Source of the DNA: Aquitalea magnusonii
GTDB lineage: Bacteria > Pseudomonadota > Gammaproteobacteria > Burkholderiales > Chromobacteriaceae
Length of the DNA: 64,000 bases
Reading direction: 5' to 3'
Assembly: GCF_003202035.1 (NCBI RefSeq)
Contig: NZ_QJKC01000002.1
Coordinates: forward strand, 1 to 64,000
The notes below the pieces were generated by a model that worked only from the letters and a program-made list of their open reading frames with translations, was not told where the DNA came from and searched no databases. Position numbers and translations under genes: made by a program. Shown in pieces: positions 4,142-6,856 of the stretch. How positions within the stretch are numbered: position 1 is the stretch's first letter; each line of letters begins with the position of its first letter.

Positions 4142-4846
4142 CTAAGCGTGACGCCAGCTGAACTGCTGAAAGGCCTGATGCCAGTAGTCCAGCACGGACG
4201 GGCCTGGCCAGCAGCTGGCATCAAACAGCGCCTGCCCTGTGCCATCCCGCCCCTGCTGCAAAGCGGCGTGGCGCACGCCTTTGGCCTGCAGGTTGTCGGC
4301 CAGCCGGTACAGGCTGTCTGCCGTCATTACGCGCGGGTCCAGTGTGGTGCGGCATTCCAGTTCAGCGGCGCTGTCCAGCGCAATATCCAGCGCCTGCCAC
4401 ATGCGGGCTTCGCTGCCCGGCACACCGGTGACAGCATCCACCCCGCCGGGGGCGGCCTTGATGTCCAGCCCGATCCAGTCCACCAGCCCGGCCACCGCGG
4501 CCAGCCGCTGCGGGTAGATGCCGGCGGTGTGCAGGCCGATGGCCAGCCCCGGCTGGCGGGCGTCGTGCATCCAGTCTGCCAGCTGCGGGGCCAGCGTGGG
4601 CTCGCCACCGGAGAACACCACGCCGTCCAGAAAACCGACGCGCGCCGCCAGCATGCTGCGCACCTGTGGCCAGTCCAGTTTCCCGGCACTGCGGGCTTGC
4701 AGGCCGGGGTTGTGGCAATAGCCGCAGCGCCAGGGGCAGCCGGCGACAAACACGGTGGCCACCAGCCGTCCCGGCCAGTCGCAGCTGGAAAACGGCTCGA
4801 TGCCGGCCAATGGCAAGCCGGGCTCAGTGATGCAGATGCTGTTCAT
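4142..4846 (-). CDS. nrdG: anaerobic ribonucleotide reductase activating protein (radical SAM)
   Basis: 234 residues from ATG 4846. CPWRCGYCHN carries the radical-SAM CxxxCxxC cluster motif near residue 40, and SGGEPTL the SAM-binding GGE motif. NrdG uses S-adenosylmethionine and a 4Fe-4S cluster to form the glycyl radical on class III ribonucleotide reductase. Its start overlaps the end of the separate glycyl-radical gene (4824-5009) by 23 bases, so its translation is coupled to the protein it activates. It is the last gene of the nrdD operon. The upstream in-frame start at 4888 lies inside the previous gene and is not favoured. Confidence 0.9.
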   Translation of the reverse strand: MNSICITEPGLPLAGIEPFSSCDWPGRLVATVFVAGCPWRCGYCHNPGLQARSAGKLDWPQVRSMLAARVGFLDGVVFSGGEPTLAPQLADWMHDARQPGLAIGLHTAGIYPQRLAAVAGLVDWIGLDIKAAPGGVDAVTGVPGSEARMWQALDIALDSAAELECRTTLDPRVMTADSLYRLADNLQAKGVRHAALQQGRDGTGQALFDASCWPGPSVLDYWHQAFQQFSWRHA

Positions 4847-5009
4847 CAAAATGCAGGCGTTCGGCAAACTCGCCCTGCTTGCCCACATTGAAGGCCGAGA
4901 CTGGACGGAAATAGCCCATCACGCGGGTCCACACTTCGCAGCGGGTACGCAGGGCCGGGTCGAGTTGTGCGGTGCTGATGACCTGGGGGTGTCGGGTTGG
5001 GGTTGTCAT
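4824..5009 (-). CDS. free-standing glycyl-radical domain of class III ribonucleotide reductase
   Basis: 61 residues from ATG 5009, preceded by a strong CAGGAG five bases away. The sequence RVMGYFRPVSAFNVGKQGEF (residues 29-48) is the C-terminal glycyl-radical loop of anaerobic ribonucleotide reductases, with Gly32 the expected radical site. In most NrdD proteins this loop is the end of the large chain. Here the large chain (5050-6765) stops 40 bases earlier in another frame, and this peptide has its own start and ribosome-binding site. It overlaps nrdG, whose product should activate it. It could be a split enzyme subunit or an accessory replacement domain as GrcA is for pyruvate formate-lyase; the former is more likely because the large chain lacks the loop. 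Confidence 0.8.
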   Translation of the reverse strand: MTTPTRHPQVISTAQLDPALRTRCEVWTRVMGYFRPVSAFNVGKQGEFAERLHFDEQHLHH

Positions 5010-5049
5010 GGTGTTCTCCTGTAAAGGGACGGGTGAAAGCGTGTCAGCC

Positions 5050-6765
5050 TCAGCTGGCGGCAGTGGCTGCCATGGTGCGGACCAGCAGTTCGGCATCGCA
5101 CTTGGGGCAGTATTCGTGGTGGCCACTCAGATAGCCATGCTGCGGACACACCGAGAAGGTGGGGGTGACCGTGACATAGGGCAGCCGGAAGCGTTGCAGC
5201 GAGCGGCGCACCAGCTGCTTGCAGGCTGCACTGCTGCTGATCGCCTCGCGCATATACAGGTGCAGCACGGTGCCGCCGGTATAGCGGCGCTGCAGCGGCT
5301 CCTGGTGGCTGAGCGCGGCGAAGGGGTCGTCGGTATGGCCGGCGGGCAGCTGGCTGGAATTGGTGTAGTAAGGCTGGGCGTCCGTGCCGGCCTGCAGGAT
5401 GCCGGGGTAGCGCTTGCGGTCTTCGCGGGCAAAGCGGTAGGTGGTGCCCTCGGCCGGGGTGGCTTCCAGGTTGTACAGATGGCCGGTGCTTTCCTGCATT
5501 TGCACCATGCGCGCACGGATGTGGTCGAGCAGCTCCAGCGCCAGCTGCTGGCCATGGGCGGTGGTGATGTCGTCGGCATCGCGGCTGTAATTGCGCACCA
5601 GCTCATTGATGCCGTTTACGCCGATGGTGGAGAAGTGATTGCGCAGCGTGCCGAGATAGCGCCTGGTGTAAGGATAGAGGCCATCGTCCATCCAGCCCTG
5701 TACCCGCCGGCGCTTGATTTCCAGGCTGTCGCAGGCCAGGGCCAGCAGGCGGTCGGTTTCGGCCAGCAGGCCGGCCCAGTCGCCGCAAAAGCGGTAGCCC
5801 AGCCGTGCGCAATTAAGGGTGACCACGCCTAGCGAGCCGGTCTGTTCGGCACTGCCAAACAGGCCGTTGCCGCGCTTGAGCAGTTCGCGCAGGTCCAGCT
5901 GCAGCCGGCAGCACATGGAGCGCACCATTTGCGGCTCCAGATCGGAATTGAGGAAATTCTGGAAATACGGCAGGCCGTAGCGGGCCGTCAGCTCGAACAG
6001 CAAATCGGCATTGGCGCTGTCCCAGTCGAAATCCGGGGTGATGTTGTAGGTGGGGATGGGAAAGGTGAAGGCGCGGCCATGGGCGTCGCCGCTGGCCATC
6101 ACCCGCAGAAAGGCGCGGTTGATGCGGTCCATTTCCGGCTGGCAGTCGCCATAGCAGAACGGCATTTCCTCGCCGGCAATCAGCGGGATCTGTTCCGCCA
6201 GGTCGGCCGGGCAGCGCCAATCGAAGGTGAGGTTGGTAAATGGTGTCTGCGTGCCCCAGCGCGAGGGCACATTCAGGTTGTAGACAAACTCCTGCATGGC
6301 TTGCTCCAGCTGGGCATCGCTCAGGCCATCGCGCTTGATGAAGGGGGCCAGGTAGGTGTCCACGCTGGAAAAAGCCTGTGCGCCGGCCCATTCGTTTTGC
6401 AGGGTGCCCAGAAAATTCACCATCTGCCCCAGCGCCGCGCTCAGGTGGCGCGGCGGGGCCGATTCCACCCGGCCCGGCACGCCATTGAAGCCTTCGTGCA
6501 GCAACTGGCGCAGCGACCAGCCGGCGCAGTAGCCGGCCAGCACATCCAGATCATGCAGGTGGAAATCGGCCTCGCGGTGGGCCTGGGCCACTGCCGCCGG
6601 GTAGATGCCATCCAGCCAGTAGTTGGCGGTGAGCTTGCCGGCGGCATTCAGAATCATCCCGCCCAGGCTGTAGCCCTGGTTGGCATTGGCAGAGACGCGC
6701 CAGTCGGCGCGGCTGAGGTATTCGTCCAGCGTGGCAAGCGGACTGACCATGACAGGTTTTTTCAT
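5050..6765 (-). CDS. nrdD: anaerobic (class III) ribonucleoside-triphosphate reductase, catalytic chain without glycyl-radical loop
   Basis: 571 residues from ATG 6765 (MKKPVMVSPLATLDEYLSR). MCCRLQLD carries the candidate active-site cysteines and SLGVVTLNCARLGY is a class III core motif. The C-terminus CPQHGYLSGHHEYCPKC is the zinc-binding CxxC-like domain, after which the chain ends at AATAAS with no glycyl-radical loop. The enzyme reduces NTPs to dNTPs under anoxia. A GTG at 6798 would extend it by 11 residues, but that codon lies within a NrdR-like operator and lacks a ribosome-binding site. The ribosome-binding site for 6765 is itself weak (AAGG about 14 bases upstream). Downstream genes are the glycyl-radical peptide and nrdG. 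Confidence 0.88.
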   Translation of the reverse strand: MKKPVMVSPLATLDEYLSRADWRVSANANQGYSLGGMILNAAGKLTANYWLDGIYPAAVAQAHREADFHLHDLDVLAGYCAGWSLRQLLHEGFNGVPGRVESAPPRHLSAALGQMVNFLGTLQNEWAGAQAFSSVDTYLAPFIKRDGLSDAQLEQAMQEFVYNLNVPSRWGTQTPFTNLTFDWRCPADLAEQIPLIAGEEMPFCYGDCQPEMDRINRAFLRVMASGDAHGRAFTFPIPTYNITPDFDWDSANADLLFELTARYGLPYFQNFLNSDLEPQMVRSMCCRLQLDLRELLKRGNGLFGSAEQTGSLGVVTLNCARLGYRFCGDWAGLLAETDRLLALACDSLEIKRRRVQGWMDDGLYPYTRRYLGTLRNHFSTIGVNGINELVRNYSRDADDITTAHGQQLALELLDHIRARMVQMQESTGHLYNLEATPAEGTTYRFAREDRKRYPGILQAGTDAQPYYTNSSQLPAGHTDDPFAALSHQEPLQRRYTGGTVLHLYMREAISSSAACKQLVRRSLQRFRLPYVTVTPTFSVCPQHGYLSGHHEYCPKCDAELLVRTMAATAAS

Positions 6766-6780
6766 AACAATATGTAGTGC
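6765..6780. promoter_or_regulatory. NrdR-like box, proximal
   Basis: taaCAATATGTAGTGc fits the NrdR consensus acaCwAtATaTwGtgt at most core positions (one core change, ATG for ATA). Its centre is 30 bp from the distal box, close to three helical turns, the usual spacing of paired NrdR boxes. It abuts the nrdD start codon. Confidence 0.6.
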
Positions 6781-6794
6781 CTTGAAATTTTCAG

Positions 6795-6810
6795 ACACTA
6801 TATATTGATT
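6795..6810. promoter_or_regulatory. NrdR-like box, distal
   Basis: acaCTATATATTGatt matches 13 of 13 leading positions of the NrdR consensus, with only the last bases deviating. NrdR is the ATP/dATP-sensing repressor of ribonucleotide reductase operons and usually binds two such boxes. It overlaps the expected transcription start of nrdD. Confidence 0.7.
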
Positions 6811-6842: not shown

Positions 6843-6856
6843 TTGATGCGGATCAA
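6843..6856. promoter_or_regulatory. FNR box upstream of nrdD
   Basis: TTGATGCGGATCAA is a perfect match to the FNR consensus TTGAT-N4-ATCAA. A start site about 41-46 bp downstream on the minus strand would fall at 6803-6808, and TAAAAA (6809-6814) can serve as -10. This is the class II activator arrangement expected for an anaerobic operon. Confidence 0.8.

Follow-up and report, generated by a model that had tools for sequence, protein, structure and literature searches.

The nrdD locus

Class III ribonucleotide reductase (RNR) is a standard means of making DNA precursors in the absence of oxygen, and the usual description is of one catalytic chain, NrdD, with an activase, NrdG. We have analyzed a stretch of 64,000 nucleotides from Aquitalea magnusonii (the window; positions 1 to 64,000 of contig NZ_QJKC01000002.1), in which the glycyl-radical loop of NrdD is encoded by a small gene of its own, downstream of a catalytic chain that lacks it. 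The features of this locus are listed below; the roles of the finger-loop cysteines and of the zinc ligands are taken over from known NrdD.

5050..6765, minus strand: nrdD catalytic chain without radical loop; start at ATG 6765, the open reading frame (ORF) extending to GTG 6798
5908..5913, minus strand: codons of the finger-loop cysteine pair C281/C282 (SMCCR), both columns being Cys in 48/48 alignment rows
5098..5148, minus strand: zinc-ribbon part, C536 to C552 (CxxH...CxxC), position from the alignment of large chains
4824..5009, minus strand: gene of the 61-residue radical subunit
5016..5020, minus strand: AGGAG ribosome-binding site of the peptide gene, six bases before the peptide ATG
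4914..4916, minus strand: codon of Gly32, the presumed radical glycine, invariant in 20/20 aligned peptides
4142..4846, minus strand: nrdG activase of the radical S-adenosylmethionine (SAM) type, with a longer ORF from 4888; TIGR02495 (NrdG2) 181.4 bits against 131.15

The large chain, with its stop at 5050, has 571 amino acids (aa) from ATG 6765 or 582 aa from GTG 6798. It matches the Pfam profile PF13597 (NRDD) over positions 2-529 of 562 (E-value 2.4e-164, 548.6 bits against a cut-off of 26.2), lies above the cut-off of NF006126 (988 bits against 548) and contains the NrdD barrel sequence (423.5 bits against the TIGR02487 cut-off of 326.35). The presumed zinc ligands C536, H539, C549 and C552 are retained (P0001 numbering, in which the chain ends at residue 567), and in the 48-row alignment three of these four columns are invariant (48/48), the last Cys being present in 47/48. 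The glycyl-radical loop is absent from this chain, as the profile match stops at 529, and is found instead on the second gene, whose product matches positions 532-562 of the same profile (E-value 6.1e-8, 32.2 bits against the curated cut-off of 26.2). One Pfam profile is therefore divided between two chains that match complementary parts of it. A Pfam scan of the peptide at E-values up to 1 gives NRDD alone and no other glycyl-radical family, and the rest of the genome (4.4 Mb, 49 contigs, completeness 100) has no match to PF13597 beyond these two places. The peptide ORF begins 40 nt after the stop of the large chain, with a relative frame offset of 1, and overlaps nrdG, whether the latter starts at ATG 4846 or uses the longer ORF from 4888. 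A first-pass annotation of the window, made from the letters alone, had described a large chain ending after its zinc-binding domain, a separate loop gene with its own ribosome-binding site in another frame, and an overlap of this gene with nrdG; all three are borne out.

Conservation of the split within the genus

A split large chain and peptide are found in 10/10 genomes of the genus, that of the window included; in one of them, G008 (designations of this kind stand for the genomes compared), the peptide is interrupted by a contig end. Within the genus the peptide occupies all three frames relative to the large chain (0, 1 and 2), with gaps of 13 to 149 nt. It is under purifying selection: the sums of nonsynonymous and synonymous rates (dN and dS) over 36 pairs from 9 species/sequences give a ratio of 0.089, and the differences by codon position are 137/68/456. 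The statements on the start and the ribosome site of the peptide apply to the genus only.

Distribution among cellular genomes

Outside the genus, the best 80 of 575 confirmed loci in named relatives comprised 63 split and 13 fused, with four undecided for lack of a large chain in the locus. These loci are the ones most similar to the peptide profile, and the proportion 63:13 is not a natural frequency, for which the class and phylum samples given below are a fairer guide. All of the 13 fused loci belong, by record title, to Actinomycetota. The split ones include seven Pseudomonas, Stutzerimonas, Achromobacter, Ralstonia, Bordetella and Thiobacillus, as well as metagenome-assembled genomes (MAGs) named Akkermansia, Omnitrophota, Gracilibacteria and Coriobacteriia. 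In the family, by table and fetched loci, 54 of the 61 searched genomes match, 31 being split (counting G044 with a broken large chain and G053 with the halves on two contigs) and 23 fused only. The class sample gave 28 matching genomes out of 274 (20 split, 6 fused, 2 fragments), and the phylum sample 57 out of 398; here a separate peptide match was seen in 12, G531 was split by ORF reading, G614 and G682 were left unassigned between the two forms, and most others were fused.

Split genes also occur on plasmid records. That of Sulfuricurvum kujiense carries the split system as three annotated genes, that of Cupriavidus necator H16 (pHG1) encodes chains of 676 aa and 66 aa plus NrdG, and ORF analysis finds the split on plasmid records of C. 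metallidurans, Cereibacter and Paracoccus. H16 is said to require its NrdDG for denitrification to run to completion (PMC2864759), which suggests that a reductase built in this way functions in cells. The same source gives the NrdDG of C. metallidurans as Rmet_5137 and Rmet_5139, with one tag between them (PMC2864759); in the C. metallidurans record the peptide is located between these two genes and is a candidate for the intervening tag. The two-chain arrangement is old and widespread, a breadth that the first-pass annotation had not anticipated.

Separate chains and proposed mechanism

We conclude that the window very probably encodes a two-chain class III RNR; that the two chains are separate is near certain from the sequence evidence. 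The conserved split, the random relative frames, the purifying selection and the lack of a full-length copy in the genome all support a genuine two-chain form, one of two possibilities offered by the first-pass annotation. It had also considered a sequencing error fusing the two frames and a full-length NrdD elsewhere in the genome: the former is excluded because other genomes of the genus carry the same split, in three frames, and the latter was not found in the genome of the window. A sequencing error or a recent frameshift in an ordinary NrdD gene would account for two halves lying 40 nt apart in different frames, but the split recurs throughout the genus with several gap lengths and its own start site, and in 63 of the best 80 (of 575) named relatives; this explanation is refuted by the conservation of the split and we give it practically no credence. 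Hardly more credible is that stop-codon read-through or programmed frameshifting fuses both ORFs into one protein. The ORFs are in frame in about a third of the split named relatives (20/63), which would suit read-through; however, the relative frames are distributed 20/21/22, matching the expectation for unrelated starts, the stops TGA, TAA and TAG are all found, and the gap lengths vary. Moreover, in G631 and G718 the peptide is distant from the large chain, which lies 9.5 kb off or on another contig, and adjoins an nrdG-like radical-SAM gene; it travels with the activase, as would be expected if the peptide is the activase's substrate.

Some points weigh against a two-chain enzyme. The evidence consists of sequence and of a model. 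The predicted structure is confident and places the loop in its usual position, but what was modelled is a tethered read-through chain, with an alignment that includes naturally fused rows; an initial prediction made with 13 similar rows was of low quality (predicted local distance difference test, pLDDT, 60.9) and was not used. G008, a genome 61% complete, has a fused NrdD as well, on a separate 5.5 kb contig that is possibly contamination. Nor is the split the rule in the family, since 23 of its 54 matching genomes have only the fused form. Compared with solved structures, the peptide profile finds the NrdD of Thermotoga maritima weakly (E-value 0.27, chain residues 616-645).

In the mechanism that we propose, the catalytic chain would fold as an NrdD barrel terminating in the zinc ribbon, and the 61-aa peptide would provide the missing glycyl-radical loop by docking in the barrel so that Gly32 comes close to the finger-loop cysteines. 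The activase NrdG, whose gene adjoins that of the peptide, would abstract a hydrogen from Gly32, and the radical would then move to a finger-loop cysteine to permit ribonucleotide reduction without oxygen. We infer that the chains form a complex, that activation takes place in trans and that spent peptides may be exchanged. Class III RNR is destroyed by oxygen when its backbone is cleaved at the radical (PMC2795772); confined to a chain of 61 aa, such a loss would be cheap. Facultative and denitrifying hosts would fit this idea.

Radical peptides apart from a catalytic chain

The peptide is found in several genomes as a multiplied or isolated unit. One large chain is accompanied by two peptides in Magnetospirillum fulvum (G717) and in G327, and by four in G908, while G846, G819 and G877 have a fused NrdD plus one or two separate peptides. 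In the phylum of an Akkermansia MAG several extra peptide copies are situated in prophage-like regions, with Sak4, RusA, ParB-like, primase or helicase genes close by.

The surroundings of some of these peptides can be described. The second peptide of M. fulvum (L182:3610-7223, G717:C27) is away from nrdD, just upstream of class I nrdA-/nrdB-like genes, and the orphan peptide of G327 (L177:3953-7996, G327:C3) shares its region with a RecT gene and an ORF that partially matches a class I/II RNR barrel. The Allochromatium vinosum plasmid pALVIN01 (L183, 77079-77288) carries a lone peptide that is annotated as nrdD, and no catalytic chain; close to it are ssb and siphovirus Gp157-like genes.

Such peptides were also obtained from virus records in IMG/VR. 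With the window-type profile there were 156 confirmed loci, and in 79 of the best 80 the stretch fetched, about 10 kb at most, contained no NrdD catalytic chain; a second profile gave 60 confirmed loci, all kept, of which 53 had no catalytic chain in the stretch. Whole records were searched for 50 chosen loci per set (the second 50 include ANMV-1), and the peptide was without a catalytic chain in 49/50 and 43/50, respectively. One of the lone-peptide records is an archaeal virus. The search patterns require parts of the loop, so that its conservation in the viral sets does not count as independent evidence. The sum dN/sum dS was 0.125 (45 pairs) in a cluster of 10 distinct viral sequences. Named phage functions were present beside the peptide in 7 of the 11 viral loci scanned: a major head protein; a replication initiator, helicase and single-stranded DNA-binding protein (SSB); an endolysin; a clamp loader; a tail fiber and virion protein; a thymidylate synthase; and an SSB. 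The other four (L250, L274, L239 and L338) had no clearly named phage function beside it.

Among annotated phage records, four matched the window peptide and three a viral peptide. MT835493 encodes a fused NrdD, and ANMV-1 a lone peptide, its annotated ORF of 144 aa matching profile positions 519-562 only; the paper on ANMV-1 infers an oxygen-sensitive RNR (PMC4372165). The family phrog_4132 matches 8 of the 9 scanned peptides at E-values up to 0.1, five of them below 1e-4. Among other arrangements in virus records, G1137 (L338; a 187-kb record) has a catalytic chain (80959-82536) and a peptide (151615-151722) about 70 kb apart, and the viral contigs L284 and L343 have NrdD reading frames of 1121 and 1072 aa in which long inserts, perhaps inteins, interrupt the match to the profile.

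These data bear on the second possibility of the first-pass annotation, a replaceable radical domain like GrcA. The peptide would be an exchangeable radical subunit, broken copies being swapped for fresh ones after oxygen damage, and viruses would supply a peptide of their own with which the host enzyme is re-armed; this extends the two-chain explanation and does not exclude it, and we consider it about evenly balanced. It is supported indirectly, by the occurrence of lone peptides (in virus records, in prophage-like regions and on a plasmid) and of genomes with one large chain and several peptides; exchange itself would be the step deduced from them. The virus records without a catalytic chain, the phage genes adjoining the peptide, the purifying selection in the viral cluster, the large chains with two to four peptides and the fused NrdD with a separate peptide all point in this direction, as does the precedent of YfiD and T4 Y06I for pyruvate formate-lyase (PFL) (PMC8683613). 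Against this, virus records are often fragments from which a catalytic chain may be absent by chance, and a matching chain in the hosts of these viruses is presumed. The lone viral peptides could also act as decoys, blocking or poisoning the reductase of the host, or be functionless relics. They do lack a catalytic chain and a lone loop could fill a host barrel, but the loop glycine is kept (in searches that themselves demanded parts of the loop), the viral cluster is under purifying selection, and blocking RNR would seem costly to a virus that needs deoxyribonucleoside triphosphates (dNTPs); we regard decoys or relics as unlikely. With an exchangeable subunit, class III RNRs would repeatedly have moved their oxygen-sensitive glycyl radical to a disposable small subunit, and mobile DNA (phages, prophages, a plasmid, an archaeal virus) would carry that subunit alone to re-arm the host reductase, securing dNTPs once oxygen or turnover spends the radical, a proposal that in our judgment could go either way. 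The host chain would then be a socket for exchangeable radicals, and the peptide the NrdD counterpart of T4 Y06I in many lineages. Viral re-arming of the host RNR is suggested by distribution and selection.

Evolution of the split

The tree was built from 65 of 90 rows, 25 having been taken out manually (some because of long branches, the others to save time), under LG+G4 without a mixture, and its bootstrap was not settled (correlation 0.982); it supersedes an earlier tree of 109 rows that had just two fused outgroup rows, both long. A clade of 41 rows (support 100/99) holds the split type of the window together with three nested re-fusions, in Actinomycetota, in an Acidiphilium plasmid and in G697, a genome of the window's phylum. 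Outside this clade there are other splits: one clade (100/99) unites a viral row with six genomes that belong to the same phylum as an Akkermansia MAG, and G992, G1004 and G1019, from the phylum of an Omnitrophota MAG, are split as well, with another viral row. The minimum number of changes on the tree is 7 (6-7 across bootstraps), and at least 5 are forced by well-supported branches. The tree fits one old fission, three re-fusions and separate fissions elsewhere. In the Akkermansia phylum the large chains stop shortly after the third zinc ligand (...CPLE...) and the peptides begin MxKC; the cut site differs and the last zinc ligand would come from the second chain, which speaks for a fission of independent origin. 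At L207 (G903:C88) and L208 (G877:C32) separate ORFs carry radical loops of another type (RIRRITGYLVGTLDRFN), in one case next to a large chain without a loop and in the other in a genome whose NrdD is fused; they are apparently a further independent case.

Comparison with known systems

In single-chain class III NrdD (Escherichia coli, phage T4, T. maritima, Prevotella copri, Streptococcus thermophilus) the zinc site and the Gly loop form one C-terminal domain of one chain (PMC11226230), whereas in the window the cut lies between them. The nearby NrdG activase (TIGR02495, overlapping gene) is shared with class III RNR. YfiD/GrcA of E. coli and Y06I of phage T4 resemble the window peptide in being small, free-standing glycyl-radical domains that serve a large barrel without a working one, and in being phage-borne too (PMC8683613). 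However, YfiD/GrcA is a spare next to full-length PFL, while the window peptide is the sole copy in its genome; coexistence with a full-length enzyme is seen not there but in G846, G819 and G877. The peptide has 61 aa, against about 14 kDa for the GrcA type, and matches PF13597 only. By analogy it may work like a spare radical part, yet it is not a GrcA, being of another family and a sole copy. The split class II NrdJa/NrdJb likewise has the RNR catalytic component in two chains (PMC9669993), but in class II. NrdD in pieces is also known from the split nrdD of Aeromonas phage phiAS4 and from phage nrdD interrupted by introns or inteins (PMC3653736); these are single cases (introns, inteins or an unexplained cause), whereas the window type is a conserved separate radical subunit. 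We found no statement on a conserved split NrdD or on lone NrdD radical peptides in the literature, of which few subscription papers were covered; the 1999 paper on H16 or RNRdb may mention the split.

A natural two-chain form would make it possible to study radical installation, docking, exchange and oxygen damage one at a time, as the radical part is of a size suited to synthesis, nuclear magnetic resonance (NMR) and isotope labelling. Only YfiD/GrcA and T4 Y06I are given as validated spare parts by authors who suggest that others might exist (PMC8683613), and the present system makes that suggestion testable for glycyl-radical enzymes other than PFL. It also offers a possible role for small viral ORFs without assigned function, such as phrog_4132, and for annotation it implies that "nrdD present" in a virus may mean the radical peptide alone, as in ANMV-1.

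Other features of the locus

Two further features of the window were recorded.

4938..4940, minus strand: codon of Cys24, invariant in 20/20 aligned peptides
6843..6856, strand not assigned: perfect FNR-type palindrome TTGATGCGGATCAA, upstream of nrdD; 1 match, 0.01 expected in the window

Cys24 stands eight residues N-terminal of the radical glycine and is found in the re-fused Actinomycetota too. The catalytic chain of the window (5050-6798) has no match to an ATP-cone; such a match is present in the split chains of C. necator H16, G631 and G718. In 9 of the 10 genus loci the palindrome, itself or in a closely similar form, is 169 bases ahead of the same codons; in the tenth the distance is 188 bases.
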